Origin: a virus | Virus record (IMG/VR): IMGVR_UViG_3300020419_000010 | Span: 28,433 to 92,432 of that record | Length of the DNA: 64,000 bases | Direction: 5' to 3' (one strand) | Shown here: piece after piece, positions 5,313 through 45,569 of the stretch | Layout of the letters: every line of letters starts with the position of its first letter | Position numbering within the stretch: position 1 is the first letter of the stretch | Notes under the pieces: model-generated | Told to the model about the DNA's origin: nothing | Seen by the model: only the letters and a program-made list of their open reading frames with translations | The model's database searches: none | Translations under genes and position numbers: made by a program

Positions 5313-5330
5313 CATTATTATTAGAGTATT

Positions 5331-13085: not shown

Positions 13086-13331
13086 ATGATTTTTAACTAT
13101 GATGACTGTACATTTGAAGCATACGAGAGAGACGGATATATGTATTACAGAGAGGTTTCCCAAGGCGGAGACCCATTATACGACTTTATTAAGTTAGAGT
13201 GGCATCAGTTCGATTTTATCAACACCACAGAGGACTTAGTAGAGATATTAGAGGATATGGAGTCATGTTTCGATAATGTCATAAATACGCATGACCAGAC
13301 AGAGCAAACACCTTATAGTTTTTATCATTAA
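13086..13331 (+). CDS. Small acidic hypothetical protein (81 aa)
   Basis: AAGGAG about 8 bases upstream. Beta hairpin (CTFEAYERDGYMYYREV) then an acidic helix. TAATG overlap with the next oxygenase. Confidence 0.55.
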   Translation: MIFNYDDCTFEAYERDGYMYYREVSQGGDPLYDFIKLEWHQFDFINTTEDLVEILEDMESCFDNVINTHDQTEQTPYSFYH

Positions 13332-16738: not shown

Positions 16739-16986
16739 TGGATAACGAATTCTTAGACGCATATAAAGAACACATGGATATGATCTCCAAGGCATTGGAG
16801 AACCTTGCTGCTCGTATGCAAACACTAGAAGGTGCTATGGGTCGTATGCCTGCACCTGGGGCAGACATGATAAAGTATAAACCAGATGGTTACCAAGATC
16901 ACCTAAACATTAAGGAAGTGTTAGATGATCTGTATATGCGACTAAATATGTTAGAAGACAGAGTTAATCAACACAACATACCTTAG
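16738..16986 (+). CDS. Small coiled-coil protein (82 aa)
   Basis: Heptad-like helices (ISKALENLAARMQTLEGAM and LDDLYMRLNMLEDRVNQH) separated by a Pro/Gly linker. TAATG with the previous gene and TAGTG with the next. Possibly a trimerising partner or chaperone for the large protein that follows. Confidence 0.6.
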   Translation: MDNEFLDAYKEHMDMISKALENLAARMQTLEGAMGRMPAPGADMIKYKPDGYQDHLNIKEVLDDLYMRLNMLEDRVNQHNIP

Positions 16987-24338: not shown

Positions 24339-27300
24339 ATGTTTGCTGACAAAATAAACATTTCGGACAGAGTTAGTAATCAACTCCCAGAGTTTATAAG
24401 GGATGAAGATCAACAACTCGTTAACTTTCTCTTTGAATACTATAAGTCACAAGAGAAGACTGGTCGTGCGTATAATGTACTAAACAATTTACTTGAATAT
24501 CTTGATATTGATGCTTATGATCCTAAGATCTTAACATCTAACACAATTCTTATCAAAGATGTTGATACAAGTGTAGAAAAGATTGAAGTAGAAGCAATAG
24601 ATGGATTCTTATCGAAAGATGGTTCGGTAATGATCGATAATGAAGTAATATATTACCAAGAAACAGTTCGTGGTCCTGATGCTATATTAACACCAGGAAT
24701 TTCACTAGAAGAATTTAATAAAAAGCGTCAAAACCTAGAAAGTCCTATAAGTTTGTTCGATGGAGTCAAAACTACCTTCGATCTTAAATTCTTAGGCACC
24801 CCAGTCTCACCTGTCTCAGCAGAACACCTTGTTGTCACTGTTTATGGGACAATGATGCAACCAGTTGTTGATTATACAATTAGTGGTTCTCAAATTGTCT
24901 TTACAACACCTCCAAGATCAAAAACTGGTACTGACCAAGTAGAGTTTACACAAATTCTTTATTATATTGGTTTTGCTGACTCAGTAATCAAAAAATTAGA
25001 ATATCCTGATGTTGCGACTCTTGCTGGTGAAGAGTCAATGCCTATTACTTACAATAGTCAACCATATTCACCTATTTCAGAGATTGGTCTAATTATTAAT
25101 CGTAATGGTACTCTACAAAGACCATATATCGATTATGTACTAACTGACAACAATACAAGAATCAAATTCTTTGTAAATATCACCTCACAGGATGTTTACC
25201 ATATAAGGTCTATCGAATACGTCTCTCCGTCCGTTGGATCGGGTGCTGAGGCGGTTACAAGGATAGGAGTCAATGGTGAGATTGAAGCAATCATAATCAA
25301 AAACGGAGGATCAGGATATGAACTTAACTTTGCTCCAAAAGTTTCTATATACAGTTCGACTGGTGTCGGTGGCAACTCAGCTGCAAGATCACTTGTCTCG
25401 GGTATCAAAAACATCCAACTTATAAGTGGTGGACAAGGATATACATCATATAACCCTCCACTTATTAATATCACACCCCCTAGTGATTTAATCAACGGTT
25501 CAAGGGCAACTGCTGCTATTACAGTTGATGATACTACTGGTCAGGTAGATAGTGTTACTATCACAGACTCTGGTTCTGGATATGACTTTATTCCAGCAAT
25601 CACTTTCCAAAACCCAGGTGGTGCATCAATTAGTGATCCTACTATTGATGGTGAGGGTAGATTAAACGTTGATTCTATCACAGTTACTTCAACAGGTATA
25701 GGATACAGCAACCCTCCAACAATTTACATTGATCCTGCTCCTGTTGATGGTATTAATGCAGAAGCATCATGTACAGTATCACCTGATGGACAGGTTGTTC
25801 AAGTTACTATTAATAATAGAGGTAGAGGATATTTAACTGCACCAAGAGCAAGAATTATACAACCAGTTGGTGCACAGGTTTTAGATGTAACTGTTGCTAA
25901 TGGTAGTGTTACTAATATCAACCTATTAACTGGTGGTGCTGGATATACAGATGCACCTTCTGTTTATATTGTGGATGATCGTAAAGGACCACTAGGAGAA
26001 GCAATCGGTGGTACAGGAGCATTGGCAGCAGCGACTATATTCAACGGAGAAATTACTGATATCAATATCATTAGTTTTGGTACAGGATACTCAACAGAAA
26101 CGCCCCCAAAGGTGTACATAGCCGAACCTTTATCCGCTGCATCGTCCTGTGACGTTGGATTTGGTGAAATCACTGGTTGTAAGATTTTAAGTGCTGGTTC
26201 TTATTACGAACCCTCTGCATTCCTTAATTGTGCTCGTGGTGTATCTGATATAGTACAGTTTGACAACTATGGTAATCAGATATATGCAAAAGAAGCACAA
26301 CTAGCACAAACTAACCATTCAAGTGGTGCTGTTGTACATAACCTTGACTCTCAGATCATTAGACAGGTATTTGACAAGTTTAGACGTCAATATATGCCTA
26401 CTATCAACATTGACTACTCACAGGTCAATCCGATACAGGTTATTAAGACTATTAAGGACTTCTATATCTCTAAGGGTACAAAAACTGCTGCACAATACCT
26501 ATTCAAGATATTATTTGGTGAACAGGTTGATGTTTACTACCCAAGAGAAGAATTAGTTACACCATCTGCTGCTTCATGGATAGTTGACACTATTTTAAGA
26601 GCAGAGTTGATATCTGGTGATCCTGCTAACTTACCTAACTCACAACTTAATCAATTTGCTGATGCTGTTGATCCAAACATAGGAGATGCTAATGTATTGA
26701 TTGAAAACGTCATTTCAATCATAGAAGGTACTGATGTAATTTACGAATTAGCAATATCAGAAGAAACATTATCAGGGGTATTCAAGATTCCCTATAAAAC
26801 AGTTCTTGCAGAACCATTAACAACAACAGAGAACATAATAACAGTTGACTCAACTATTGGGTGGCCCGAGAAGAACGGAACTATCATTATTGGTGATTCT
26901 GAGATTGTACAGTATAAAGAAAAATCACTAAACCAGTTTATTGAGTGTACACGTTCTAAAAACGGTGTAGTAGAAGACTGGGACCCAGGAACTACTATAT
27001 TCTCTGACATATTTGTATATGTCAACCGTGGTTTAACAACAGAAGTCAAACTTCGTGTTCTAGGTATTGCAGAAGCGGGTACAACAGTCTTAGAAGACAG
27101 TGGATCATATTATCTACCTGGTGACAAGTTAAATGTTGCTGCGTTAGGTTCTACTGCTAATGATAAGCGTCTAAACTCATGGTTATACAACGTTAAGAAG
27201 TTAATCTCTGTTACCGAGATTAATCCTACACAAAATAGCAATTCAATAAGTCAAATTGCTAACGTTGTTTGTTCTAACCCACATGGTTTACTTGTAGAAG

Positions 27301-30300
27301 ACAAGGTTACCATCTATGGTGCTAACCCTGCTGTATATAATGGCACGTTTGAAGTAACGTCACGTCTTGATGAATTTACCTTTACATATAACTTACCTGT
27401 TCCTACTGATATTGTTCCACAGGGTAATATTCTATTATCAGTTGACCTCAACAGAGGTAAGTCAACTGTAACCTCTATTAATGAAGTTATATCACTCTTT
27501 ACATCTAACATACAGAACTCCTTCTTCAATAGTGCTTATGTTTACATTGCTGCATCTGGATTACCCAACTATAAGGTTGGACCATTTACAGGATCTGCAC
27601 TTATTCCAGGAAACCAACGTAAGTTACTAAGATTCCCTAGAACAGTTGAGACAGTATCTACAAGAACAATAGTTGCACCCAATACTCCTATTGGATCATG
27701 GGTAAATGGTGTTGCTGCATGGTCTTACAAGTCTGCTGATGTTGTAACATTTGGACCTTTAACCAGTATTAGTATTCTTACAAATGGACAAGACTATGAT
27801 GCTGGATCAAAACCAGCATTAGAAATAACTGGTGGTGGAGGTACAGGTGCTGCTGCTGCGGTAACTGTTAATGGTTCTTTATTCTCTATTGCTGTAACTA
27901 ATGAAGGATCTAATTACACAACACAACCATTAATCTCTATTGTTGGTGGTGGTGGATCTGGTGCAACTGCACAAGCGGTTGTTACTAATGGTAGAGTAAC
28001 AAGAGTACTTGTAGAGAATGCTGGAACTGGATATACATCTCAACCTACTATATCAATAACTGGTGGTGGCGGTATAGGTGCCCTTGCATCTGCACAAGTT
28101 CGTGGTCCTATATCAGGTGTAACTCTAACATCCCCTGGTGCTGGATATACATCAACTCCTTCAATCAGACTAAATTCTGGTGAAGGTGCTCTGGCACAAC
28201 CTATTGTTATTAATGGTCGTATTGTATCAATCGCTATTATTAACTCTGGATCTGGATATACAACTGCACCTACTATCTTTATTAATGGTGATGGATTTGG
28301 TGCTCAGGCAGTTGCTGTTATTGGAACATTAGGAGAAGATAAAGGTAAAGTTATATCTGTAACAATTACAAATAGAGGTGTTGGATATACACAAGGAATG
28401 ACAACCGTACGTTTAGAAGCGGTTGGTCAACTAGCAACATTCCAAGCAAACGTATTCCAGTGGAATAAAAACCTTGAATACGATTTAGCATCAAAGTATG
28501 ACGTAGCGAGAGGATATGTATTTACTGGATTCAATAACCAGTATGGTGGTGAGTATGCACATATATCAGATCCAAAAGAACTAAGATATGTTGTTGGTGA
28601 TAACGTTGTATTAGATCCAGTCACACAATCATTCAGAGAGATAGGTGTTAACGAAGCACACTCTCCTATTATTGGTTGGGCATTTGATGGTAACCCAATC
28701 TACGGTCCATATGGATATATCGACCCAACTGATCAGAACAGTGGATTAAGAAGAATGCGTTCCTCTTATAAACTTAAAGACGAAGTTGTATATGATCTAG
28801 ATACTAACCCAACACCATCAAGAACAGATGGTCCTGCATTATCAGAGTATCCTGCTGGTATATTTGTTAATGACTATGAATACACATTCCAAAGAGGTGA
28901 CTTAGATCCTTACAATGGTAGATTCTGTAAGACACCTGATTTCCCTGCTGGAACTTATGCATACTTCATTACTATTGATGAATCAGATACAGGTTTACCA
29001 GTATTCCCTTATATTATTGGTCCACAGTTTAACTCTGTTGTTGATACATGGAACTTATCATTAAATGCAGTTCAAGAGAATATACCTCTTGATGTTTCTC
29101 GTTTCAGAGATCCATATGCTAATGTTGATATTGATATTGACCGCCAACCTAACCAAGAGTCAGATTCTTTCGTTACTGAGAAAGAAGGTGATGTACTTAT
29201 CTTTGAAATAGAGGATATTGACGGTGATGGATTAATTACTCCTGTTGAGATTGCAAATCAGCAAGCAATTACAGAAGAAGCAGCATTACAGATATATGAT
29301 TACTTCCCATTAGTATCTGCTGAGTCAAGAGTTGATATTGAAGTAGAAACAACTACAAAATTTGAATCTGCACAGATTGATGGGTTTGTTATTGAAAACC
29401 CAGGTGTATCATATCAGGTTAATGATACATTGTTCTTTGACAACACAGGAACAGGTGGATTTGGTGCATCTGCACAAATTGAGTCAGTGGTAGGTCAAAG
29501 TATTGCTGCTTATCAGAAACAAATTATAAATGACATACCATACGGTAAAATTATTACTTCTGCTAACCATGAACTTATTGCACAAGATGAAATCATCGTA
29601 AGTTCACGAGTTATTACAGAAAACACAAATAAGAGATTCTACATGTCAGTTGTTACTGGTATTGAGACAATCTCTGTTGATCAGATAGGTGTTGGTTATA
29701 ATGAGCAGATTCCTGCAACTTATGAGATTATTGCAAGTCAAGGACAAGACGTAGAACTAGATGTCGTTCTTGATACTACTACTGGTAAGATTGATACTGT
29801 TAATATCATTAATTCTGGTTATGGATACTCAGTAGATGCTATACCACAAATTAGAGTATCACATCCACAACAATACAAGAAAACTTACTATTGGTTAAAC
29901 CAGTATGCTGAATCTTCTGCATCATTTGAAATATTTGACATTCAACCAGCAGATGATCGTACATGGTATGCGTGTGGTGAACTTACAGAGACAAATGGCA
30001 ATAGTTCTGCATTCTTAGCTAAGTTCTCTGATCTTGGTGGTGTAATTTGGGATAGAACACTTTTACCAAGTGCAAGTATCAAGAAAGCAAGATTTAAACG
30101 TATATACTTAGATCAAACAACTGCTGATGACCATATCATCTATGTTCTTGGTGAAACAGAGTCACAATCAACTGCTGCATACAATCCTGACATATTAGTT
30201 GTCAAATATCAATCTGGTCTTGATAATGCTAACAACCCAGAGGGTATTGTTGAGTGGCAGAAGGAAATTGCTGGTGTATCGGGTTCAACAAGGTCTGACT

Positions 30301-33300
30301 ATGCTGGTGACCTCTATATGGACGATGAACAACGTCTATACATCTGTGGTTGGACAGATACTAACTCAGTTGACCCAGATGACATCTGGATCATGCAACT
30401 TAACAGTTTAGGTGATGTTATCGAGAAACGTAAGTTTGCTTCACCTAATAAAGGAGAACAATTACATCAGATTCATTATATTGGAAATGATAAGATTATA
30501 TTCACTGGTATTGACTTAGATAACAACGATCTCATGTTTGGTGAGATGATCTATGATGGATCTAACATTGAAATGAGATATGTTAAGAAATTAGCAGTAT
30601 CTGGTGGTCAGGTAAGAAGACCACAGTTTGTTATTGATTCTTACAATGATTTGTTCTTCACATGTGATATGTGGAACGGAACTAAGCATTATGGTGTTGC
30701 ATTGTTCAAAATTGCAATGTCACAGGTTGAAACCACTGCTGCTAACCCAACATGGGTATTCTCAAAGATTATTGCACCTAGTATTCCTTTTGAGTCAATT
30801 ACACACGCTGGTGTCTCTCTTGATGAGTTTGGAAACATTAATCTTGTTACACACGTTTTATATGAAGATAATAACCAACAAGCAATTATTAATTACATCA
30901 AATACGATGGAACGACTCTTAAAAAGTCAAATGTCATTTCTGGTGCTTGGAATAGTGGAACTTCAACAACAGATTACGGTTTAGGGTTTACTGCACATAA
31001 TCATACTGTTGATAACTCTGGTGATGTCATAATTCCAGCAAATATCCAAAAATCAGTTCAAAGTGCTGTATATCGTTTTAATGACACTAACGATCTTTAC
31101 TTTGACGCTACAAAACAGAAAAAGGCGATTCCTACGATTGTAAACAGTGCACAACTTGTTTATGACAGTACAGTTCAAAAATTTGGTACAGGATCACTTA
31201 AATTCCAACAATACGGTTCTTTATCATGGGCAAACCTTGATAACAATGATGATTGGACTGTTGCAATGTGGGTCAAGATGGATACGTCTCATGACTCCAA
31301 TAATCCAATAATGGAGATGATTACAGCGATAGATGACGCTGGTTCGACTGTAAAACTTAATATTATCGGTGCAGCGTCAGATGCCAACTTTGGTAAGATC
31401 AGAATGGTGATTGCACCGCAAGGTGCAAGTGCAGTGACTGTTGATTCAGTTGGATCAACATATTTCACTACAATGGACGCTGGTAACTGGCATCACATTG
31501 CATTTGTTAAAGAAGAACCTAGTTTGGGTTCATATGACTATTCTGTTTATTTTGATGGTGTAAGAACAAATACTGCAACTAGCACTGCTGATATTGCAAT
31601 GGATGACCTTACAATCGGTTGTGCAACATCAGGACAAGCAATTACTAACTCATTCCTTGGACATATTGATGATATCGCTATTGAAGCAAGAGCAGTCTAT
31701 ACTGGATCATCTTTACAAGTTCCTACCGAAAGATATCGTATTACAACAGTTAATAGCAATACTGACTACATTAAGTTTGATAGGGAGCATATTAAGCGTG
31801 CTGATTACCAAACATCAACAGATGGACTCGTATTTACAGAAAATACAAATCTCAACATTAATAATCTTAATAATCCAGTAATTACCGTTTGGAACGAAGG
31901 TGCAAGTGGATTACAGATATTAGACTACTCTGACGTGACTTCTCAACTAAGTCCAGGAACTTATACGTTCTCAGAGACAGTTACAACATTTGCGTCTAAA
32001 ACTTCGACTATTCCAACTCCATTAGGTAAGAGACTACTTATTACACCTAATGTTGTTGCAAAATACTATATTAGGGATGCTGGGTATTCTAAGATTGATA
32101 ACGTCCTAGAATTCACATTTAACCAAGCAATCAAGTATTCTAAGGGAACTATCATTCAACAGTTCAATTCCCAAGGTGTAACACAAGCATTTGGTACTAT
32201 TGTTGGAGTTCCAACAGGAACACTTAATAATCCTGGATTAGGCACCAAATACAAGATTGGTAAGATATATGGTACTTTTAACGATTCTGACAGATTTAGA
32301 AACGATACTAACGAAGAAAACACTATTGACAACGTAGAGTTCAATGTTAAGCGTCCACAGGAACAATGGGTAACTGGTAAGGCATATGTCGTTGGAGATC
32401 AAGTTTATAGTGCTGGTAAGATATATGCTGCTACAAACTCTGCTACATCAGGTGGAACTGCTCCTACACACTCTATTGGTATAGTTACTGATGGTGCTGT
32501 TACATGGAACTTTATTAGCGTATCTGGAACATTACAAGTTAATCTTGCAGACTATGCTTGGCCCAGACCATCAGAACCAGAATGGGAAGAAAATAGATCT
32601 TATTCTGCTAATGATTTTGTTTACTATGGTAGATACAAGTATCAGGCACAAGCAGATGGTATTGCTGGACCAACTGCTCCTGTACATACAACTGGTACTG
32701 TTAGTGATGGAAATGTCAACTGGGCATACGTTTCAACATATACAGGATTAGATTCGTTTGCTAGATTCAGACCATATGCTGAGAACGATTATCGAATACA
32801 AATTATGGGAATCTACACAGATTCCGATTTCATAGTTGGTGACGTAATTTCGCTAGGTAATAGTATCACGGCTATACCAAACGCAGATAATCCAAAGATA
32901 GCAGATATCGATGGAATTGGATCTGTAAGTAAGATTAGATTTACTGTAAACCTTGATAAAGATATTATTAGAACTGCTAATACAAGAACTGACTTAATAT
33001 ATGCAACTGCTACTACTAAGCATAATCTAAACGTAAATGACATTCTATATGTTGAAGGATTCACAACTGCTGAATTTAATGGATCATTCTTTGTACAAGA
33101 ACTATTCTCTTCAAGAGATTACACATATAGACTTCGTTCAACTGCAAGTGCTGACCCACTATTTGTAAACAGTGGTATTGCGAATGTCAAGATATCATCT
33201 AAGCACCCAACATTAATGTTGGTTAGAAATCATTCTTATATCTTTGATATGAGTGATGTATCTAACTTCGGATATTTCTTATCATTCTCACAAGACAACC

Positions 33301-36300: not shown

Positions 36301-39300
36301 TTGAAGAAGGTGATAAATTCCAAGGACCTGGTGGAACTGCTACTGGTGAAATTGTAAGAATTGACTTTGAAGCAAACCCTGTAATATTATACTACTTAAA
36401 GTCTAGTGAGGCAGAGATTTCAGATGGAGAAACAATACAAAGATACTTCCCTGATGCACAAGGAAATAGATTACTAGATTCTCTTACAGAGGTAGTTGCT
36501 GGTTCCAATACATTAGGTGATATTGTTGATACTCTTATTATTAACAAAGGATCTACATTTAACGGTATTATATTTGAGAGACTTATATCTCTATCTAATC
36601 AGAACGTAATTCTTGACAATATTGCTGAGACTACAATTACACCTACTACATTAACAGATGCAAGTGATCGTATCAACGCTGACTTCCTAGATTTTGAAGA
36701 AGTAAGATCTACTGAAATTGAATATGAGAACTTAACTGGTGGTGTAATAGCAGCAAACGATATGCTTCGTTCTATTACATTTGAGTATGGTAACCAAGTA
36801 ACTAACGCTAAGAATAGATGGCAAGATGGTGGTCGTATGATCTCTCTAAACAAAGACGAGATCGTTGACTTTGCTAATGCACAGATAGCAGTTGAGCACC
36901 CAGGATTCTACTACCCAGGTGATAACATGACTGATGCTTGGAGTAGATATGCTGATGCTTATCGTCTAATCATCAAGAATATAGATTACATTGCTAACAA
37001 AGCATATGCATTGATGGTTGCACAATATCCATCATTAACAATTCCATCTGGACCTAAGTGTGTTAGAGATACCAAGTATATGATCGAGGCATTAGCATTC
37101 GACGTTTATAGTGGTGGTACGAAATACACACGCAAATTGTTACAAAAGTATTTCTCAACCGATGGTACGACCTTCTTATATGTAAATAATGAGGCAGAGG
37201 CAACTAACTATGCATTTGGTCAGGCAGTTAGTTTGATGAAACAGGCATTGAGCAATATGCTCACTGGTTCTGAAACTGTTGACGGTGTGACCTACGTTAA
37301 GTATAATGAAAGAACTGCTGGTGGTTCCAGCGGAACTGGGATTACTGCTGACCCTTCACCAGGTAATCCTTATGGAACTGCTGGCACCAATACCACAAAC
37401 TATGGTGCTACTAATTGTTCAGATGTTCAGTCAGCTTTACAAACTTTATATGACAACGTTTCTGTTGTACTTACTGCTGGTTCTCTCGCTGATTTACTTG
37501 ACGAGGTAACTGTCACACAGTACACTGCACATGAAATTAAGTGCAGAAGAGACATAGGATATCTTGTAGATGCATTATCAACAGATATCACAACTGATGG
37601 TAACTTCCAAACTGTCAAGTTTATTAAGACATACTTTGATAATATTGGTGTTCCTATTTCTAATGGATTTGTAGGAGAGGTAAAAGAATATCTATCTGCA
37701 TTTAAACATGTAGCAGAATTATGTAAGAGAGCAATCAATAATTTATTATATGTACAGGTTAACACTAGAACACCTGAGACAGGTTATATGTTGAAAGATC
37801 CAACAACATATCAAGGTCCTTATCTTGGTGCTGCTGGAACTACACTAACACAATTTACACCAACTGCTGTTACATATACTCCTGCTAATGGTCAGTTAGT
37901 AATGACTATTGGTAATCATAGTTTGACCACATCAGATACTGTTAAGATTAGACCTTACAGTTTGAACTTCACATGTACTATGGACGGTGGTGCTTCATTC
38001 CACCCATATCCTAGAACAGGTGACCCAGCATTTAACGCTGATCTAAATATATCTGCTACAACTCAAACTTCTATTACAGTTGACGTTGGGGCATCTCCTC
38101 TTGTACAATATACACCTACTGGTGCAACCTACGATCCAGCAACAGGTGTAATGGTTCTTACTATTGGAACTCATTCACTTGAAATAGGTGATCCAGTAAC
38201 ACTTGCCGACCTCTCAATTACATTTACTTGTACACAAGACGATAACACTACACCAAAACAATATCCAAGAACAACTGACCCTGCGTCTGGTGCATCTTTA
38301 CCAGTTGTTGCTAAGGATACAAATACTATTTCTATAAACGTCGGTGCTTCTGCACAGACTGATCAATATGCTCACACATTTGTTTCTGCCTCTGCTAACG
38401 CTGTTAGTTCTGGTGGTGGTTTTACTCATACATTTGTTTCTGCTGAACCTAATGCTGTATACAATGGGGGCGGAACCGAAGCAGCATATTATGATCCTAA
38501 TTATTATAGTGGAGTTAACGAAGGTCTTGGTAATTGTGCAGACGTTCAAGCAGGCATTCATACATTAATATCACACGTTACTACTGCAATAGGTGCAGGA
38601 TCACTTAGTGCTGTTCCTACTGGTGCTGCTCTAAATGATGGTGGATATGTAGAGAATGAAAACCTTAGAGTATTTAAGATTGCATATAAAGATTTACAAG
38701 GTAATGGATTCTTCCTTCCTGGTGAAACAATCAGAGGTTCAAGTTCCAATGCTAACTTTATATGTAAGGGAACAAATGCTGGATTGAAGTGGTTATTTAC
38801 TAACGCTGTTACTGGTACATTTACAGATAGAGAGTACGTCTCTAACTCTAAATTAACTGTTAATGGTTCTGCTGTTCTAACAAAATTACAGAAGAAAGCA
38901 GGAACACAATCAATAAGATTTGACGCTGGTTCTTACTTAGCACATACATTATCTGATCGTCAGAAGTTTGGTACTGCTGACTTTACTATTGAGATGTGGA
39001 TACGTCCTAATGCAGTAACTGGTACACAGTTCTTATATGATACAAGAACTACAAGTGCAACATTGGTAGGATCTCCTGTATTGTATCTCGATGGAACACA
39101 AATCAAATACTGGTATGATAGCACAGATCATATCGTAGGTGCACATAACTTAACTGCTAATGTTTGGGGTCATATTGCTCTTACTAGAACAACAGGTATT
39201 ACTAAGTTGTTTGTAAATGGTACACAAGTTGGTGGTGACTATAATGATACTAATAACTACCTAGAAAGACCATTTAATATTGCTGCTGATTGGCAGGGTG

Positions 39301-42300
39301 CTAATGGATTTGTTGGACATATGGATAACTTCATACTCCACACAGAATCTAAGTACTCAAATACATTCACCCCAGGATTTACATATCCAACAGATACTGC
39401 TAAGGTAACATTTGGATTAGATTGTGAGTCACCTATAATCATCAGTACAGAAGATTGCTTCGGTACATATACAGGTCAGACAAACTCTACTGCTACAAGT
39501 AAGAAAGTTAACTATGATAATAAGACAGTTATTATTGAGGATATTGATTTAGGTAGAGACTCATATAGAGAAGCAGCAGATATATTAGAACTTAACTTAG
39601 ATTGGATGGCAGAAACTGCTGTTGGTTTAATGGCAGCAAAATATCCTGATTTCATAATTCCAGGTGACAGTAGTACTAGCACAACTGGTACTGCTAAGTG
39701 TGTTCGTGATACTAAGGAATATATCGCAAAAGCAATTATTGCTGATATCAGATATGGTGGTAATTACAACAGTACAATCTCTGGTAGAGGATATCTAACC
39801 AAGGCGGGTGGTTTAGATTACGTTGGTAATGAACTTTTACAATCTGTATATGCTTGGAATGAACTTGCTAATGTAATGAACTATATCATTACAACTACAA
39901 GTAGTGATCTTGTAAATTATCCTGCTGGTGGAACAAAATATACAGAGATTCTAAGAGTTCCTAATAACTTCTCTTCCCCTGCATCTCAGGCAATACAAGA
40001 TGAGATAACAAGTCTATCAGATCAGATAATTAATATTCTTGCTCCTACTGGTGATAGATTTAGGGATGCTGGTGATGCATTGTGGAAGAACAGAGATTAC
40101 ATTGCAGAAGAAGTTGCTCTTAAAATACAAAATGACTATAAAGCAAATATCAATGGCACAGAATATGACTTCTTAGTAATGCCTGGATATGGTCAACCAT
40201 ATTGCGAAAGAGATATTAAGGTTTACATTCTTCCTGCTGTTGTTACTGATTTACTAACAGGTGGTAACTCTGCTACACAATATGCTATCGATCAATATAT
40301 CAATCCTTCTAGTCAGATCATTCATGTAGAAGATCAACTAAGTGCTATGTTAGATGCATTTGAACATACTAAGAAATTAGCACATCATGCAATCAACCAA
40401 ACATTATTAACATTTGGTACAACTGCATCTAGTATTGGAATCTCAGCTGAATATGCAGATGATTACTATGTTGCTGAGTACACACAGATAGAAGCATATA
40501 GAGACACAACAGTCACAATAGACACACAAGCACCTGATCAAAGTAGAGTTTCTCCAAGTCATAATATTTGGATGGATACTGCTGATCAGTTAGAAAGAAA
40601 CAAACATGTTATTGCATGGGAAGCAGTTCACACAATGAATGATATGTCTTACTTCCTAGACTTCCAAGTTCCAGGTGGTAGAACAAATTGTGCTGATGAC
40701 CTAGTAGATGTTATAGAAGCAATGGTTCATGATATTAGACTAGGTGGTAACTCTAAGACTTGGGATGCTGCTGCACTATATCTTGATCCAGAAGATAGCA
40801 GTCTTATCCATGTAGAAGGTGAAGATAAAGCATCTAAGTGGGCAATGACATGGGCAATGGAAATAGCAATCCTTACCATGAGAAATGGATTTGGTAGAGA
40901 GAACCTTTACATCTACGATCCAGAAGATAATACTGGTGCAGAAGGTGGAGAAGCAACTGGTGGTGGCGGTGCTTCTGAATCATTTAATGAAGTTGAGACA
41001 AGTACATATGAACAGAATGGTGCTATTGATAGATTTATTGATGCTGCAAATATAGTTGAAAGAAATATTAGATTCATTGCAGAGCAAGCAGTACATGAAA
41101 TGCTTGTACAATTCCCATCACTACACAACACTGATTGGGTAAGTGGCGTGGGTCCATTCACCCCAGCAGCAGGAAGCATAACATATGATGCTGCTACTGG
41201 TGTCATAACATATGACCATGGTTCTGCTCATGGACTAACAACAGGGCGTAAGATCTATGTACGCCAAGAGTCATTAGTATTCACATGTACTAAGGATAAT
41301 AATAATTCTGAGCATGCATATCCTAGAACAACCGATCCATGGTATAACAAAGGTATTGCAATTACATCAACAGGTACAAATACATTTACATTTAATGTTG
41401 GTGCTGCTGGTGCAAACGATCAATATGTACATACATTTGTAAGAGCAGAGCATGAAGCAATCACTGTTGCTGGTAAGCATGACTGTGTACAAGACGTTAC
41501 TGATGTTCTTGATGCAATCCAGTGGAACTTACGTCACGGTGGTAACAACAAAGTATTCCATGCTGCTGAAATGTATACAGATGGAACTGCACTTGCACAC
41601 GTTTCTGGTTACGTTACAGAAGTAACTTGGGTAATGAATAAAGCAAGAGATCTTGCTATACAAGTAATGAGACAGGAGACTGTTACTACTACTGGTTCTA
41701 CACATGGATTCTCACAGAAATTATTCACTGACTTAGACTTCTTCCCATATAATCAATCAAACTATACTATTACTGCTGATGGTAGTACACCTCTTTGTGC
41801 TGACGTAGCATCTGCTATAACAACATTTGCATCTATCGTTACTGATACACTTGCTAACCCTGTACAGATAACTGATGGTACGATTCAGAAATCACTACCA
41901 AATATTTGGCCAATCAAGTATGCTAATGATATGGCAAATCGTGATACATCAATCACATTTGATGAAAATGGTGGTACATCTGGTTGGAACAATACTTGTG
42001 CACAGGCAGCATCTGGTATTGAGACATTATTCAATCTTGTAATGGATACAATAGAGAAGGCAGCATCTTCAAGTCCTGCTCCTAGTCATCTAACAACTGT
42101 TACTAGAACAACCCCATACAATAGTAATGCTGCATATCAATACTATACATGTTACAACGTTATATCTGCATCTGATACATTATTTGATCTAATGATTGAT
42201 ACACTTGGTGGTGGTAATTCTCCACATACAGGTGGTAACTATTCTGAACGTTTCATTGCAAGATACCTAACATTTAACAAAGGAGCAATCTCTCGTAAGG

Positions 42301-45300
42301 CATTTGCTGAGGTACAATCACAATATCCTACAACCAATGCTGAAATAGGGTTTGCAGAAACTATAATGGATGCTGTTATCTACGACTTGAACACTCGTGG
42401 TAATGCTGGAATGATGAAGTATGTAAATACATGGTTTGATGGTGAAGGTAACTTTATTGCATTCCCAACTGTTGTTAGACAACACTTAGTATTCTATCTC
42501 TTGCGTATTGCAGAGGCAGCAAAACGTATATCCTATGACCAGAATAATACATCAGAATGGGGAGCACAAAATACTTATGATGCATACTTTGATCCTACTC
42601 TTTCTGCTGCTATACTCAATCGTATTGAATATCAGAAGGAATCTACTGAGTTCTTCATGGACGCATCAATTAACGTTGCTGAGTTTGCATTAACCAGAGG
42701 TACACCTCCAACAAATAATACTATTACATGGATCAATAATACACATGCAACCAATGATCGCAACTTATACGATGAAGGTAATGACTGGAACACTGACCCT
42801 GATCTTGTTCTTAATACACCAACAGTCGAGGTTGGATTCGAGAGAAGAGAACATAGAGTTAAGATTACTCGTCCTAATTTCTATTCTCGTGGTGATGTAT
42901 TAACTTACGTTCCTGCATCAGCAGATATTGAGCAAGGATTACAAGGACAGAATTGGTTCTATGTTCTTAATGCAACTCCAACATACTTTGAGATTTCAAG
43001 AGAGATTAGACACGATGCAAGATACTCACGTTTCCGTGTAGACACTCTTACAACTGGTCAACAACAGTTTGCTGTTGATGTAAGATCTGGTATCGAAAGA
43101 GCAACTACAACATTTGGTGTCAGAGATATTGATACACCTGTAAGTGGTGGATTTAATATTGCTGATGTTGTTGCTGGTATCACATCTGATTCTCGTGCTG
43201 ACGTTATAAGCACTAGAAATAACGAAGCAAAAGTTATTAAGTTGTATAGCAAGTTCTTTATCGACGCTGCATCTGGTAGATTTACAAATGGAGAGACAAT
43301 ACAGGTTCAAGGTTCTGCATCTAACAATGGTAGTATCGTTCAGACATCTGTACTGACAGGTGATAATAGTAACGAAGGTTATATTTACGTTGAGAATATT
43401 ACTGGTGCATTCAGTGACGATGATGTATTAGAAGGTGTTGATAGTGGTGTTACTGCTAGTGTAAATGGCACAGGTAAGACTCGTATGTTGGTCAACCTAG
43501 ACAGAGGAGCATTTGCTGTTAATGAAATGATATTCAACAAAGCAAACTCCGCTGAGGCAGATATCATTCTTTATGAAAACTCTGCTGGTGCTCTTACAAG
43601 TAACACAGGTGGTAGAATTAGTATTGATATTGAATCACTAGATCAAGACTTTGTTGATGGTGATATCATCTATGGTTCTGTAACAGATAAGATTCTTGAT
43701 ATTGCAGACATTAGAGTATCAGGATTAGATCAGATTGAACTTAATCAGTTTGTACATGGTACTAAGACTGTTCAGTATCAGGTTGCTAGTGTCACAAGAG
43801 ACCAAGGATTTACAGGTGACTTTGCAGCAGGAGATTTAGTATATCTCCTACAAGGAACTATTCCAAAAGAACCAGGTTGGACTGCTGTTGTAACTGAATA
43901 CAACTACGATCAGGAGAATAGTATTCATAACATCTATCTTGCTAACTTTACACCTTATGGTTCAGCAGCAGATGGTACAACAGTTGATGATCCAAATCTA
44001 GCAGTCAATGGTGCTATCGGTAAATTTGAGAACCTTAATAACTTCCCAATTATATTTGCTAACCTAAGTAGTGCAACAATTACTAACTACACATCTTATG
44101 GACGTGTTGCTGGTAAGGCAATCTCTGGTACAACTGGTAGAATATGGTTAGAAGATATAAGTGGTGACTTCCCAAGTAATTTAAGCATCATATCTGACTA
44201 TGGTTGGACTGCTGGTGTTACACAGAGTAAAGGACTACTCGGACGTTGTGATAGATATTTCAGAGGATTTGATGGGGTTGCAACAACATTCAAGTTGACC
44301 GTCAACAATGGCGAAAGATACTTCCCCGACCCTGCTGGTCACATCCTCACATTTGTCAATGGTGTACTACAACCCCCAGGAGCAAACTTTGCATACACTG
44401 CCTTCTCAGACCAGATCCAATTTACAGAACCTCCAACTATCGGATCTGAGTTTATCGGATACTATGTCGGTAAGTTACGCCAGTTGGACGACATTAGTTT
44501 TGAATTTGATTCACTTCGTTCGTCCTTCAACCTCAAATACCTTGGTGGATTCTACTCACTAACATTAACAGAGGGTGTTGATTCTGCGACAATATTACCA
44601 GAAAACAATATTATCTGTTCATTGAACGGTGTTATACAGGAACCTGGAATAGGTTACGAACTTGTTGGTTCAAGAATAATCTTTGCTGAAACTCCTCGTG
44701 CAGGATCTACATTTGTAGCATTCTCATACATTGGTTCTGATGCTGACGTTATCGCTGCAACTGTTGTACCTCCTATCGAAGCAGGAGACGTATTAGAGAT
44801 CGAAGGAGAAGGTTCTCCTCGTGAAGTTGCGTTGATCGAATCTTCAAACTCCTTAATTACTTTCGAGTACACAGGAACTGTTAAGGGTCGTGACGCTTCT
44901 GCGTTATCAACTATAAAAGCGGGTGAAATAACAAAAGCAATAATCACAACTCCTGGTGATGGTTATTCATCACGTCCACAAGTTGATGTCATATCATCTA
45001 CTGGATTTGATGGTCGTGTTCGTGCGTTGATGGGTATATCAAGTATCGTTGTTAAGAACGCTGGTATTGGTTATGCATTACCTGATGTTGTTGTAGAAAC
45101 AACTGTTGAAGATGATTTCGTTGCACCTACTGGTGGTGGTGTTAACGGTGGATTTGACACATACCTTGGACAAGGTACAGATGCAGATGGTAATCCAATC
45201 GTTATCGTTGCTGGTTATATTGTCATCAATGCTCAACCAACAAACGTAACTGTTAACCAAGGTCAGACTGCATCATTCACAGTAGATGGATCATTCAGAC

Positions 45301-45569
45301 TACAATCTGATAACAGTGTGGGAACTACACCTCTCAACTATCAGTGGCAGCGTAAGCAATACGGTGAAACTGCATGGTCAAACATCACTGGTTCTACACA
45401 AGCAGTTTACACATCTAACGCTGCTGAACAGGCAGATGATGGTGATGAGTTCAGAGTTGCTATCACCGCTGCTGGTGCACAACCTGTTTACTCCAACTCT
45501 GTAATCCTAACAGTACAGACTGGTGCTACTGTAATTTCTAACTTCACACCTAATCAACTCTTCCAATAA
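24339..45569 (+). CDS. Giant modular virion protein, baseplate/adhesin (7076 aa)
   Basis: One uninterrupted 21.2 kb frame. The N-terminus (LPEFIRDEDQQLVNFLFEYY) and the KDFYISKGTKTAAQYLFKILFGE segment (about 690-725) are typical of large cyanophage structural proteins following gp6. Modules by approximate residue: FDG/LNG-like 140-210; GxGY repeats 300-607, 1140-1365, 3135-3340 and 6865-6915; YHYH-like 1370-1546; beta-propeller-like 1845-2218; LamG-like lectin folds 2240-2470 and 4820-5030; CBM-like pairs 2676-2800; SGA modules 3750-4030; at least seven helical repeats with C-x-RD and GGN between 4200 and 6065; TCTxD beta modules 4500-4700 and about 5610-5710; Ig-like domain 6958-7061. It probably occupies the gp7 position of the wedge and carries receptor-binding arms. 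The exact T4 equivalent is not clear. Confidence 0.8.
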   Translation: MFADKINISDRVSNQLPEFIRDEDQQLVNFLFEYYKSQEKTGRAYNVLNNLLEYLDIDAYDPKILTSNTILIKDVDTSVEKIEVEAIDGFLSKDGSVMIDNEVIYYQETVRGPDAILTPGISLEEFNKKRQNLESPISLFDGVKTTFDLKFLGTPVSPVSAEHLVVTVYGTMMQPVVDYTISGSQIVFTTPPRSKTGTDQVEFTQILYYIGFADSVIKKLEYPDVATLAGEESMPITYNSQPYSPISEIGLIINRNGTLQRPYIDYVLTDNNTRIKFFVNITSQDVYHIRSIEYVSPSVGSGAEAVTRIGVNGEIEAIIIKNGGSGYELNFAPKVSIYSSTGVGGNSAARSLVSGIKNIQLISGGQGYTSYNPPLINITPPSDLINGSRATAAITVDDTTGQVDSVTITDSGSGYDFIPAITFQNPGGASISDPTIDGEGRLNVDSITVTSTGIGYSNPPTIYIDPAPVDGINAEASCTVSPDGQVVQVTINNRGRGYLTAPRARIIQPVGAQVLDVTVANGSVTNINLLTGGAGYTDAPSVYIVDDRKGPLGEAIGGTGALAAATIFNGEITDINIISFGTGYSTETPPKVYIAEPLSAASSCDVGFGEITGCKILSAGSYYEPSAFLNCARGVSDIVQFDNYGNQIYAKEAQLAQTNHSSGAVVHNLDSQIIRQVFDKFRRQYMPTINIDYSQVNPIQVIKTIKDFYISKGTKTAAQYLFKILFGEQVDVYYPREELVTPSAASWIVDTILRAELISGDPANLPNSQLNQFADAVDPNIGDANVLIENVISIIEGTDVIYELAISEETLSGVFKIPYKTVLAEPLTTTENIITVDSTIGWPEKNGTIIIGDSEIVQYKEKSLNQFIECTRSKNGVVEDWDPGTTIFSDIFVYVNRGLTTEVKLRVLGIAEAGTTVLEDSGSYYLPGDKLNVAALGSTANDKRLNSWLYNVKKLISVTEINPTQNSNSISQIANVVCSNPHGLLVEDKVTIYGANPAVYNGTFEVTSRLDEFTFTYNLPVPTDIVPQGNILLSVDLNRGKSTVTSINEVISLFTSNIQNSFFNSAYVYIAASGLPNYKVGPFTGSALIPGNQRKLLRFPRTVETVSTRTIVAPNTPIGSWVNGVAAWSYKSADVVTFGPLTSISILTNGQDYDAGSKPALEITGGGGTGAAAAVTVNGSLFSIAVTNEGSNYTTQPLISIVGGGGSGATAQAVVTNGRVTRVLVENAGTGYTSQPTISITGGGGIGALASAQVRGPISGVTLTSPGAGYTSTPSIRLNSGEGALAQPIVINGRIVSIAIINSGSGYTTAPTIFINGDGFGAQAVAVIGTLGEDKGKVISVTITNRGVGYTQGMTTVRLEAVGQLATFQANVFQWNKNLEYDLASKYDVARGYVFTGFNNQYGGEYAHISDPKELRYVVGDNVVLDPVTQSFREIGVNEAHSPIIGWAFDGNPIYGPYGYIDPTDQNSGLRRMRSSYKLKDEVVYDLDTNPTPSRTDGPALSEYPAGIFVNDYEYTFQRGDLDPYNGRFCKTPDFPAGTYAYFITIDESDTGLPVFPYIIGPQFNSVVDTWNLSLNAVQENIPLDVSRFRDPYANVDIDIDRQPNQESDSFVTEKEGDVLIFEIEDIDGDGLITPVEIANQQAITEEAALQIYDYFPLVSAESRVDIEVETTTKFESAQIDGFVIENPGVSYQVNDTLFFDNTGTGGFGASAQIESVVGQSIAAYQKQIINDIPYGKIITSANHELIAQDEIIVSSRVITENTNKRFYMSVVTGIETISVDQIGVGYNEQIPATYEIIASQGQDVELDVVLDTTTGKIDTVNIINSGYGYSVDAIPQIRVSHPQQYKKTYYWLNQYAESSASFEIFDIQPADDRTWYACGELTETNGNSSAFLAKFSDLGGVIWDRTLLPSASIKKARFKRIYLDQTTADDHIIYVLGETESQSTAAYNPDILVVKYQSGLDNANNPEGIVEWQKEIAGVSGSTRSDYAGDLYMDDEQRLYICGWTDTNSVDPDDIWIMQLNSLGDVIEKRKFASPNKGEQLHQIHYIGNDKIIFTGIDLDNNDLMFGEMIYDGSNIEMRYVKKLAVSGGQVRRPQFVIDSYNDLFFTCDMWNGTKHYGVALFKIAMSQVETTAANPTWVFSKIIAPSIPFESITHAGVSLDEFGNINLVTHVLYEDNNQQAIINYIKYDGTTLKKSNVISGAWNSGTSTTDYGLGFTAHNHTVDNSGDVIIPANIQKSVQSAVYRFNDTNDLYFDATKQKKAIPTIVNSAQLVYDSTVQKFGTGSLKFQQYGSLSWANLDNNDDWTVAMWVKMDTSHDSNNPIMEMITAIDDAGSTVKLNIIGAASDANFGKIRMVIAPQGASAVTVDSVGSTYFTTMDAGNWHHIAFVKEEPSLGSYDYSVYFDGVRTNTATSTADIAMDDLTIGCATSGQAITNSFLGHIDDIAIEARAVYTGSSLQVPTERYRITTVNSNTDYIKFDREHIKRADYQTSTDGLVFTENTNLNINNLNNPVITVWNEGASGLQILDYSDVTSQLSPGTYTFSETVTTFASKTSTIPTPLGKRLLITPNVVAKYYIRDAGYSKIDNVLEFTFNQAIKYSKGTIIQQFNSQGVTQAFGTIVGVPTGTLNNPGLGTKYKIGKIYGTFNDSDRFRNDTNEENTIDNVEFNVKRPQEQWVTGKAYVVGDQVYSAGKIYAATNSATSGGTAPTHSIGIVTDGAVTWNFISVSGTLQVNLADYAWPRPSEPEWEENRSYSANDFVYYGRYKYQAQADGIAGPTAPVHTTGTVSDGNVNWAYVSTYTGLDSFARFRPYAENDYRIQIMGIYTDSDFIVGDVISLGNSITAIPNADNPKIADIDGIGSVSKIRFTVNLDKDIIRTANTRTDLIYATATTKHNLNVNDILYVEGFTTAEFNGSFFVQELFSSRDYTYRLRSTASADPLFVNSGIANVKISSKHPTLMLVRNHSYIFDMSDVSNFGYFLSFSQDNQFKLEYSFNVIEREGTPGVASATETPTVQFTIGGEVTNITYYFDPSRLGSNSPVGTNSFIDVIKTPFDGTFRISEVLSDTEFRFPLLYEPEFTNANIGLDDQDEPNSKYSTTSVKAIGPINNIKLISPGGFYQRLPVVSDIASDRKIEKVRIVNGGTEYAVGVYTQVPILGDGEGGLVQLTVEVDEEIGSGTITAVALTDPGKGYTEASIDVDGIEGILGPTLSGSGAELNVVIPAEGTGAAVFLTGRQIGKIKTLKNNEFGYGYSHDYTLRPEIAFPVNLQLFNTSILSQITITNPGAGYTSPPSVIIEGGGGTGAEAEAIVKNNRLSEILIKNPGAGYSSQPSVTLKSEFTYVVNLDLNYLQFNFPHGITTGAAVQFRAEDIGSTVGVLPKPSSVGLTSLSSTQTYYAITGDANSLESDQLRFALTPVDAQSGNFITFLTQGDGRQVLLTEVFGGQADAVVETSRFLEGEEVFQGETYELASAFGIVSENEGWQIQPKILKITNPRGDFVVGGKVQGVISRASGIIDNLNIAKGVLNIDALTRTPGRFIDDVGKPSEIVQKIQDSYFYQNFSYVIKSKIPINRWKEQILENNHPVGFSMFGQLELTGGKDVSGRKVVAGFTKQVNINEYSNVNQITSFGAAQPIYSTFNNSEVLFRKKRLTNSEEILTSIVKKIDNIASQFDGSKKSFPIAVEGENLVVNENQLLITLNGIIQAPGTSYSVVGNNLVFAEPPKPDSKVVYRNVEVDLYPITRFNLNTIGGIFPSIGDTVFGFVSNATARVVATGATSVDVVDIQNGPFVLNERIDVSRTGFSALIGSIDDSITKIFLQNIGGTFTQSALAGDRVTGATTGATATIQTVDTVNQTIDVTDMANGYFDRGENVSFFNAGYGANVLNVDSVNYKTIFEFGETVTSLDGNTAVIEENNLDLDGVIDDKLVLSKTSGTSEYETGTYSIFLNDIIYSASSNIAAKITSISPYRDPIVSINLVRPVGSTTGSWSSFEEGDKFQGPGGTATGEIVRIDFEANPVILYYLKSSEAEISDGETIQRYFPDAQGNRLLDSLTEVVAGSNTLGDIVDTLIINKGSTFNGIIFERLISLSNQNVILDNIAETTITPTTLTDASDRINADFLDFEEVRSTEIEYENLTGGVIAANDMLRSITFEYGNQVTNAKNRWQDGGRMISLNKDEIVDFANAQIAVEHPGFYYPGDNMTDAWSRYADAYRLIIKNIDYIANKAYALMVAQYPSLTIPSGPKCVRDTKYMIEALAFDVYSGGTKYTRKLLQKYFSTDGTTFLYVNNEAEATNYAFGQAVSLMKQALSNMLTGSETVDGVTYVKYNERTAGGSSGTGITADPSPGNPYGTAGTNTTNYGATNCSDVQSALQTLYDNVSVVLTAGSLADLLDEVTVTQYTAHEIKCRRDIGYLVDALSTDITTDGNFQTVKFIKTYFDNIGVPISNGFVGEVKEYLSAFKHVAELCKRAINNLLYVQVNTRTPETGYMLKDPTTYQGPYLGAAGTTLTQFTPTAVTYTPANGQLVMTIGNHSLTTSDTVKIRPYSLNFTCTMDGGASFHPYPRTGDPAFNADLNISATTQTSITVDVGASPLVQYTPTGATYDPATGVMVLTIGTHSLEIGDPVTLADLSITFTCTQDDNTTPKQYPRTTDPASGASLPVVAKDTNTISINVGASAQTDQYAHTFVSASANAVSSGGGFTHTFVSAEPNAVYNGGGTEAAYYDPNYYSGVNEGLGNCADVQAGIHTLISHVTTAIGAGSLSAVPTGAALNDGGYVENENLRVFKIAYKDLQGNGFFLPGETIRGSSSNANFICKGTNAGLKWLFTNAVTGTFTDREYVSNSKLTVNGSAVLTKLQKKAGTQSIRFDAGSYLAHTLSDRQKFGTADFTIEMWIRPNAVTGTQFLYDTRTTSATLVGSPVLYLDGTQIKYWYDSTDHIVGAHNLTANVWGHIALTRTTGITKLFVNGTQVGGDYNDTNNYLERPFNIAADWQGANGFVGHMDNFILHTESKYSNTFTPGFTYPTDTAKVTFGLDCESPIIISTEDCFGTYTGQTNSTATSKKVNYDNKTVIIEDIDLGRDSYREAADILELNLDWMAETAVGLMAAKYPDFIIPGDSSTSTTGTAKCVRDTKEYIAKAIIADIRYGGNYNSTISGRGYLTKAGGLDYVGNELLQSVYAWNELANVMNYIITTTSSDLVNYPAGGTKYTEILRVPNNFSSPASQAIQDEITSLSDQIINILAPTGDRFRDAGDALWKNRDYIAEEVALKIQNDYKANINGTEYDFLVMPGYGQPYCERDIKVYILPAVVTDLLTGGNSATQYAIDQYINPSSQIIHVEDQLSAMLDAFEHTKKLAHHAINQTLLTFGTTASSIGISAEYADDYYVAEYTQIEAYRDTTVTIDTQAPDQSRVSPSHNIWMDTADQLERNKHVIAWEAVHTMNDMSYFLDFQVPGGRTNCADDLVDVIEAMVHDIRLGGNSKTWDAAALYLDPEDSSLIHVEGEDKASKWAMTWAMEIAILTMRNGFGRENLYIYDPEDNTGAEGGEATGGGGASESFNEVETSTYEQNGAIDRFIDAANIVERNIRFIAEQAVHEMLVQFPSLHNTDWVSGVGPFTPAAGSITYDAATGVITYDHGSAHGLTTGRKIYVRQESLVFTCTKDNNNSEHAYPRTTDPWYNKGIAITSTGTNTFTFNVGAAGANDQYVHTFVRAEHEAITVAGKHDCVQDVTDVLDAIQWNLRHGGNNKVFHAAEMYTDGTALAHVSGYVTEVTWVMNKARDLAIQVMRQETVTTTGSTHGFSQKLFTDLDFFPYNQSNYTITADGSTPLCADVASAITTFASIVTDTLANPVQITDGTIQKSLPNIWPIKYANDMANRDTSITFDENGGTSGWNNTCAQAASGIETLFNLVMDTIEKAASSSPAPSHLTTVTRTTPYNSNAAYQYYTCYNVISASDTLFDLMIDTLGGGNSPHTGGNYSERFIARYLTFNKGAISRKAFAEVQSQYPTTNAEIGFAETIMDAVIYDLNTRGNAGMMKYVNTWFDGEGNFIAFPTVVRQHLVFYLLRIAEAAKRISYDQNNTSEWGAQNTYDAYFDPTLSAAILNRIEYQKESTEFFMDASINVAEFALTRGTPPTNNTITWINNTHATNDRNLYDEGNDWNTDPDLVLNTPTVEVGFERREHRVKITRPNFYSRGDVLTYVPASADIEQGLQGQNWFYVLNATPTYFEISREIRHDARYSRFRVDTLTTGQQQFAVDVRSGIERATTTFGVRDIDTPVSGGFNIADVVAGITSDSRADVISTRNNEAKVIKLYSKFFIDAASGRFTNGETIQVQGSASNNGSIVQTSVLTGDNSNEGYIYVENITGAFSDDDVLEGVDSGVTASVNGTGKTRMLVNLDRGAFAVNEMIFNKANSAEADIILYENSAGALTSNTGGRISIDIESLDQDFVDGDIIYGSVTDKILDIADIRVSGLDQIELNQFVHGTKTVQYQVASVTRDQGFTGDFAAGDLVYLLQGTIPKEPGWTAVVTEYNYDQENSIHNIYLANFTPYGSAADGTTVDDPNLAVNGAIGKFENLNNFPIIFANLSSATITNYTSYGRVAGKAISGTTGRIWLEDISGDFPSNLSIISDYGWTAGVTQSKGLLGRCDRYFRGFDGVATTFKLTVNNGERYFPDPAGHILTFVNGVLQPPGANFAYTAFSDQIQFTEPPTIGSEFIGYYVGKLRQLDDISFEFDSLRSSFNLKYLGGFYSLTLTEGVDSATILPENNIICSLNGVIQEPGIGYELVGSRIIFAETPRAGSTFVAFSYIGSDADVIAATVVPPIEAGDVLEIEGEGSPREVALIESSNSLITFEYTGTVKGRDASALSTIKAGEITKAIITTPGDGYSSRPQVDVISSTGFDGRVRALMGISSIVVKNAGIGYALPDVVVETTVEDDFVAPTGGGVNGGFDTYLGQGTDADGNPIVIVAGYIVINAQPTNVTVNQGQTASFTVDGSFRLQSDNSVGTTPLNYQWQRKQYGETAWSNITGSTQAVYTSNAAEQADDGDEFRVAITAAGAQPVYSNSVILTVQTGATVISNFTPNQLFQ

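Follow-up and report, generated by a model that had tools for sequence, protein, structure and literature searches.

Phycobiliprotein-like domains in the giant gp7-position protein of a T4-like cyanophage

The 64,000-nucleotide stretch analysed here (the window) corresponds to bases 28433–92432 of the 92,432-base IMG/VR virus record IMGVR_UViG_3300020419_000010 and contains no N. It holds a single gene for a protein of 7,076 residues (24339..45569, + strand), referred to below as the giant, which occupies the gp7 position directly downstream of the gene for the baseplate wedge protein gp6 (22234..24333, +; phrog_219, E 1e-195). A C-terminal extension of ~3,400 residues bears seven helical domains that resemble, by profile and by predicted fold, the phycobiliproteins (PF00502; phycocyanin, phycoerythrin and allophycocyanin). 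The original prediction, made from the sequence alone, had listed helical repeats among the modules of this protein; the repeats exist, but they are not generic, and their phycobiliprotein-like identity, as indicated by sequence profiles and structure models, is the new part of the present analysis.

The size of the frame alone suggests that 21 kb of coding sequence might be an assembly join or several genes. The single stop of the frame is the terminal one, leaving 7,076 codons open, and the base composition is coding-like across 14 of 14 full 500-codon blocks (G+C content 0.16–0.26 at third and 0.43–0.52 at first codon positions), while the other two forward frames have 16–36 and 48–82 stops per full block. 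A chance origin of the open frame is excluded, and the uninterrupted frame that had been read from the letters is borne out over its whole length. Split homologues and a join, named at the outset as the outcomes that would overturn a single-gene reading, were also looked for. In six of six related cyanophage genomes, gp6 is followed by one open reading frame (ORF) without internal stops, of like size and in the same place (P-RSM6, 8,573 residues; P-TIM40, 7,351; S-SSM4, 6,932; ACG-2014d, 6,817; S-WAM1, 6,737; S-SZBM1, 6,619), the nearest annotated relatives being those of P-RSM6, S-WAM1, S-SZBM1 and P-TIM40. Because all six carry a single uninterrupted gene, split homologues and an assembly join are in practice excluded. 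IMG/VR contigs also carry two queried stretches of the giant at 91–100% identity, and we rejected an assembly or split-gene artefact as having a negligible chance of being true. All seven pieces in which the giant was scanned match phrog_701, which is itself 6,136 positions long. The giant is no one-off, and its size is ordinary for its kind, since genes of this length are the norm among these relatives.

The seven domains were located with a repeat hidden Markov model (HMM) built from seven giants, the seed pattern of which required C-x-x-D before iteration. The repeat consensus comprises a helix with N-x-x-x-I-A, a proline, C-x-R-D and G-G-N. Domain 1 (residues 4204–4310; 36948..37268), with C4241 at 37059–37061, matches PF00502 above its cut-off and was modelled with AlphaFold2; domain 3 (5076–5190; 39564..39908; C5121) also matches PF00502 and is part of a tandem model. 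Domains 2 (4364–4472; 37428..37754; C4402), 4 (5241–5358; 40059..40412; C5289), 5 (5411–5520; 40569..40898; C5451) and 7 (5971–6071; 42249..42551) were found with the repeat profile, as was domain 6 (5566–5607 plus 5689–5783; 41034..41687; C5716), which is split by an insert and appears as two half matches. All lie on the + strand. A stretch with the motifs FTCT.D and HTFVSA recurs in the giant, within or between these domains (41034–41687; residues 4546, 4631 and 5650).

In the giant, PF00502 (Phycobilisome) matches residues 4205–4310 (E 2.8e-5) and 5078–5129 (E 4.1e-6), both above the curated cut-off; when the whole record was searched, only the first was above it and the second fell below. 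Three of the six relatives reach E 0.001, with S-WAM1 alone passing the cut-off and P-RSM6 and S-SZBM1 under it. Similarity was then sought without targeting any family, by hmmsearch of a 42-repeat profile against 177,635 distinct PDB sequences (E ≤ 10). Among the best 60 of the 101 matches, 57 are named phycobiliproteins (phycocyanins, phycoerythrins, phycoerythrocyanins, allophycocyanins, phycobilisome components and cryptophyte forms) and three are fluorescent proteins, namely 8u0f, named 'bacterial fluorescent protein', and two entries of smURFP, which is derived from a phycobiliprotein. The best match has E 1.1e-7, and the cysteine of the repeat's C-x-R-D falls on the bilin-attaching cysteine of the motif KCARD. 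Aligned by hhalign to 154 phycocyanin-type sequences, the repeat profile gave a probability of 95.4 (E 1.7e-8). The highest value among 30 column-shuffled controls was 2.1, and the reversed alignment scored 0.5. In the reciprocal direction, the phage profile found 64 places at E ≤ 0.1 in 12 cyanobacterial genomes chosen for holding phycocyanin, all within ORFs of 162–261 residues, and a phycocyanin-type HMM hit in each of the 20 loci fetched from among these. With a phycocyanin-only HMM run on the giants, 11 matches to real proteins, most of them within the repeats, ranked ahead of the first decoy, which scored 0.3 bits.

Structure prediction points the same way. An AlphaFold2 model of domain 1, computed from 142 repeat rows taken from the window and IMG/VR loci, has a predicted local distance difference test (pLDDT) value of 92.4 and a predicted template modelling (pTM) score of 0.84; the values for a three-domain model are 78.9 and 0.65. 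The fold predicted for the giant's repeats is a globin-like helical one. Foldseek returned 200 PDB matches to the single-domain model at E ≤ 10, and the best 50 of them (probability 0.82–1.00, E from 0.056) are 47 phycobiliprotein or phycobilisome entries, two smURFP entries and one designed near-infrared fluorescent protein. When 785 chains were aligned to this model by VIA-align, the top chain was phycoerythrin beta 2vjh_B (Z 13.4, 1.7 Å over 101 of 107 residues), and the best 50 were 49 phycobiliproteins and 8u0f, as were the best 50 of 999 chains aligned to the three-domain model. Residues 1–164 of the latter (residues 5072–5235 of the giant) align to phycoerythrin beta from residue 31–33 to the C-terminus (Z 17.5, 2.3 Å over 145 residues, or Z 17.2, 2.0 Å over 138), so that the phage domain would correspond to a phycobiliprotein that lacks its N-terminal hairpin. 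Since helical models can reach such Z values by chance, we place more weight on the make-up of the lists and on the sequence evidence.

The resemblance thus lies in the predicted globin-like fold, the helix order and the C-x-R-D bilin site; the giant differs in stringing seven copies inside a baseplate-position protein, in lacking the N-terminal helices and in often replacing Arg86. Several results count against the kinship. The X/Y helices, which serve alpha-beta pairing in phycobiliproteins, are absent, the models aligning only from target residue 31–37 on, and because of this we use the name phycobiliprotein-like and not that of a light-harvesting phycobiliprotein. P-TIM40, ACG-2014d and S-SSM4 gave no PF00502 match, and the phycocyanin-only HMM scores the giants weakly (7.1 bits at best). 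The profile similarity to PDB sequences is significant over ~60 residues only, none of the 200 Foldseek matches reaches E ≤ 0.001, and pairwise BLAST against 338 cyanobacterial ORFs was clear for two of six repeats (1e-6 and 1e-4), the other four being at 0.06 or worse. These last three results would be expected if an unrelated helical repeat had come to resemble the phycobiliprotein helix pair by chance. Such convergence is very improbable in view of the ranking among the best 60 of the PDB matches, the shuffled controls, the reciprocal genome search and the agreement of the predicted fold across the full domain. By profile comparison and modelling, we regard the fold-level kinship of the repeats with phycobiliproteins as firm, and the domains are most probably of cyanobacterial origin.

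Whether the domains would carry pigment is a separate matter, and on the profiles and models described here bilin binding is a hypothesis for and against which the case is about evenly balanced. To describe the putative site, 229 IMG/VR loci with 1,063 matches to the profile were used; 499 distinct full-length repeats remained once short, duplicate and X-bearing ones were dropped, and these, together with 42 from the giants, were thinned at 70% identity to 104. The position of Cys84 is cysteine in 86% and that of Asp87 aspartate in 87% of these non-redundant repeats, frequencies that may be inflated, to the detriment of the pigment hypothesis, because the seed of the profile demanded C-x-x-D. 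In a 53-row alignment that sets the three-domain stretch of the window beside 52 relatives (43–99% identical to it), the cysteines C50, C218 and C380 and the aspartates D53, D221 and D383 of three neighbouring repeats, domains 4 and 5 among them, are invariant in all rows. Within the window, six of the seven copies have the Cys84-type cysteine; the giant is poor in this residue, with 31 in 7,076 (0.44%), six of them at the C-x-x-D sites of the repeats.

A second bilin cysteine of beta subunits, Cys153, is served by CpcT lyases and possibly by CpeT, according to PMC10452541. After domain 1, a candidate equivalent, C4360 (37416..37418, +), precedes a stretch that looks helical; it lies in the motif N-C-[SA]-D-V, and all but one of 57 non-redundant rows of orthologues have it. 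A relaxed hhalign alignment sets it on Cys153 with a probability of 65, confident over the first 54 columns only. When the Cys153 segment of phycocyanin beta was compared with 299 windows, the best six all covered C4360 (11.6–13.5) and 60 shuffles of the target window reached at most 10.4; the next window, without C4360, scored 11.4, and the absolute probability was no higher than 14%. The assignment of C4360 is suggestive only, a lead from sequence comparison.

Searches by tblastn with two of the domains found 323 phage records. Near-copies are frequent among these, and by the first word of their names 267 are Synechococcus, 49 Cyanophage, 6 Prochlorococcus and one 'Marine'. Diverged copies are missed in this way, and the profile adds the Prochlorococcus phages P-HM1, P-HM2, MED4-213, P-SSM4, P-SSM7, P-RSM4 and P-SSM3. 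The domains are also present in other fibre genes, for example in S-PM2 and S-RSM4. The S-PM2 record annotates 16 tRNA genes inside its domain-bearing 11.3-kb fibre gene, perhaps a coordinate problem or a real overlap.

In the isolates sampled, their distribution follows that of cyanophage CpeT, a separate gene whose product is lyase-like by family (PF06206, the T-type phycobiliprotein lyases). At E ≤ 0.001, 20 of 28 isolate genomes have the domains, and exactly these 20 have a CpeT-family gene; the 28 are a non-random set of which six were chosen by similarity of the giant gene and 22 for diversity, and neither is found in P-SSM2, S-SM2, S-SSM7, S-CRM01, S-TIM5, HTVC008M, phiM12 and T4. P-SSM2 has one first-look CpeT candidate below this requirement, and the CpeT match of P-SSM7 has one internal stop. 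Of 26 records, 19 of which have the domains, the Pfam model PF06206 alone detects CpeT in 15, every one of them domain-bearing; a phage-built profile detects it in 19 of the 26, the same 19, of which 11 supplied the seeds, the other eight, like the isolates S-SSM5 and S-CAM1, being outside the seed set. Sullivan et al. (2010; PMC3037559) report 12 genomes out of 16 with cpeT. P-SSM4 is stated to be without cpeT in PMC2984593; we found a CpeT in this phage (NC_006884) at 16633–17073.

In some genomes the two are close. S-PM2 has cpeT at 163952–164479 and the domain-bearing fibre gene at 165928–177267, 1.4 kb apart, and S-RSM4 has cpeT at 176523–177047 and the domain-bearing fibre gene at 162121–175569, 1.0 kb apart, in each case on the same strand with few genes between. 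In S-CAM1, cpeT (74963–75487) shares its strand with domain matches 1.8 kb away, and in the window's own IMG/VR record it lies at record positions 4619–5071, far from the giant. The sample was extended with two IMG/VR records of >100 kb (L433 and L523) from gp23 scans that otherwise gave mostly short contigs, and with ten of >100 kb chosen for carrying domains; of 13 IMG/VR records, all with domains, ten have CpeT. Two other partners were considered. The bilin reductase PF05996 occurs in 10 of 19 records with domains vs one of seven without, a weak link that is looser than that of CpeT, and the S-type lyase PF09367, as a partner where CpeT is missing, was ruled out by its presence in none of 32 records.

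Several observations speak against pigment. The contacts of a bilin include Arg86 and Asp87, and the position of Arg86 is arginine in 51% and aspartate in 26% of the 104 repeats. Domain 7 is without the attaching cysteine, and domain 3 has none at the Cys153-type site that CpeT may serve. CpeT is missing in three domain-bearing IMG/VR records, G001 (189.9 kb) and two that are probably fragments, G002 (106.8 kb) and G008 (112.5 kb). G001 (3300042453_001086; 189,882 bases), with five domain-profile matches in frames of 3,496 and 1,695 residues, is the clearest exception to the co-occurrence, neither CpeT nor CpeS being found in it. None of the 32 records searched has an S-type lyase. P-SSM2 has a bilin reductase and no domains. 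Finally, in a gp23 phylogeny that covers 24 records and leaves out the window, S-TIM5 and later additions, the shared presence and absence amounts to three changes on the best tree and one independent pair on supported branches; with so few changes, the pattern of domains and CpeT, though striking, is not statistically independent evidence.

These points would suit descent from phycobiliproteins without pigment, in which the compact helical unit serves the baseplate or fibre as a spacer, an oligomerisation module or a host-binding module and packing is the reason for retaining the cysteine and aspartate. This explanation, to which we give not quite an even chance, fits all of the fold evidence equally well; the variable Arg86, the cysteine-free domain 7 and the 190-kb record with domains and no CpeT are in its favour, and the tandem copies and the insert within a domain look like modular shuffling. 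It has to account for the retention of the cysteine, both across the non-redundant repeats and in every row at three neighbouring repeats, in a protein so poor in this residue, and for the CpeT pattern over 28 isolates, which would have to be a coincidence of lineage.

The remainder of the giant bears on what kind of protein it is. In T4 the gene order is gp6, gp7, gp8, and T4 gp7 has ~1,030 residues. The order gp6, giant, gp8 is present in the window, with three more genes between the giant and the gp8-like gene (50607..52142, +; phrog_438, E 6.4e-217), whose gp8 label comes from the annotation of relatives; the placement between gp6 and gp8 that had been proposed for the giant holds with this addition. 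The three are a virion structural gene, the baseplate wedge tail-fibre connector (47204..48691, +; phrog_677, E 1.7e-132) and a further baseplate-type gene.

By blastp, two blocks of the giant, with approximate borders, are held in common with gp7-sized proteins: block A, residues ~674–1357 (26358..28409), and block B, residues ~3081–3626 (33579..35216), both on the + strand. A 1,016-residue protein of the Pelagibacter phage HTVC008M, which follows a 618-residue ORF of gp6 size, matches residues 674–933 (E 4.5e-10) and 3081–3626 (E 5.6e-19), and a 1,030-residue protein of the Sinorhizobium phage phiM12 matches 676–1357 (E 2e-12) and 3183–3601 (E 1.2e-8). Long extra stretches separate these blocks in the giant, and the gp7-position proteins of HTVC008M, phiM12 and T4 are seven times shorter; none of the three phages has a phycobiliprotein-like domain at E ≤ 0.001. 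PF23786 is above the family cut-off in phiM12 and below it in HTVC008M and all giants (residues 699–740 in the window's). In four of six relatives, parts of this family lie near residues 680–695 and 3,540–3,590, the second matches being weak (E 1e-4 to 5e-3, coordinates converted); in HTVC008M they lie ~520 residues apart. Exact borders of the core are uncertain, since the recurring GxGY repeats produce more than one local match. With the N-terminal 800 residues as query, 426 records are found, including seven of Sinorhizobium, four of Methylophilales, two of Agrobacterium and one of Ochrobactrum. A phmmer search of PDB with the first 1,000 residues returned nothing at E ≤ 1, and PF23786 has no match in the T4 genome, so that gene order is what ties the giant to T4 gp7 itself. 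From these alignments we read the giant as a core of gp7 size into which large segments have been inserted and to which a C-terminal extension has been added. The idea that modules accumulated on a baseplate protein agrees with the common blocks and the inserts.

Other modules could be identified by profile, all on the + strand: a YHYH domain (residues 1401–1547; 28539..28979; PF14240, E 7.6e-29), two LamG-like domains matching PF13385 (Laminin_G_3; residues 2291–2452, 31209..31694, E 4e-12; and residues 4870–4998, 38946..39332, E 2.5e-15) and a Hoc/Ig-like C-terminal stretch (residues 6945–7060; 45171..45518; phrog_613, E 1.2e-11, and phrog_4069, E 6.7e-4). The module list given in the original prediction is recovered in these parts, but its CBM-like member, a CBM_5_12-like stretch (E 7e-5), scores 23.2 bits vs a curated cut-off of 26.2. 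Two further very large genes lie downstream, at 52144–59589 (2,481 residues; phrog_358, function unknown) and 60114–63998 (at least 1,295 residues, open at the window end; phrog_697, structural protein). Elsewhere in the window, the genes at 243–857, 13331–13957 and 16070–16738 all match phrog_81, a family of 2OG-Fe(II) oxygenases, and 14720–15403 matches phrog_3704, labelled ferredoxin.

Existing labels place the giant among structural proteins. In PHROGs, phrog_701 and the families phrog_18802 and phrog_4527, which match parts of it, are labelled virion structural or short tail fiber protein; the six relatives are virion structural proteins in RefSeq, and two GenBank copies carry the name 'baseplate wedge initiator'. 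Phycobiliproteins are unmentioned in all of these labels. From the gene position and the virion structural annotation, we infer a location in the virion.

We suggest, with about equal readiness to be right or wrong, that the giant is the gp7-position baseplate protein of a T4-like (Kyanoviridae-like) cyanophage, its core enlarged by modules and its phycobiliprotein-like domains loaded with bilin, the loading being hypothetical. A gp7-sized core would have gained inserted modules and the C-terminal extension, and the latter would have brought in the seven domains of the host's light-antenna fold, most probably from cyanobacteria. The most likely mechanism would be that, during infection, the phage CpeT lyase uses bilins made by the host or by the phage (HO, PebS, PcyA) and joins a linear tetrapyrrole to each domain at its conserved cysteine, yielding a pigmented tail. 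Such pigment might stabilise the fibres, screen light or render attachment responsive to light. A broader and distinctly more doubtful proposal is that T4-like cyanophages build pigmented virions, with CpeT loading bilins onto baseplate and fibre domains, so that the bilin genes would work for the virion instead of the antenna of the host, and the pigment might act as a light sensor or switch for adsorption. Light-dependent adsorption is reported for several marine cyanomyoviruses in PMC2984593; a link between it and these domains is speculation.

A search of the open-licence literature found no report of phycobiliprotein-like or PF00502 domains in phage structural proteins, and as far as our searches show, the reuse of a photosynthetic antenna fold in this common group of ocean viruses is unreported. 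In passages of five papers (PMC10665884, PMC2984593, PMC10452541, PMC3037559 and PMC13198022), cpeT, cpcV, pebS and pcyA are mostly tied to the host antenna or their role is left unresolved, and no phage-encoded bilin acceptor is named. The domains described here may be the reason for the presence of pigment-attaching genes in such viruses. If this is true, the bilin genes of phages, even of those infecting hosts without phycobilisomes, would serve the particle. Even without pigment, the presence of antenna-type domains in tail proteins across so many phage records, near-copies included, is unexpected.

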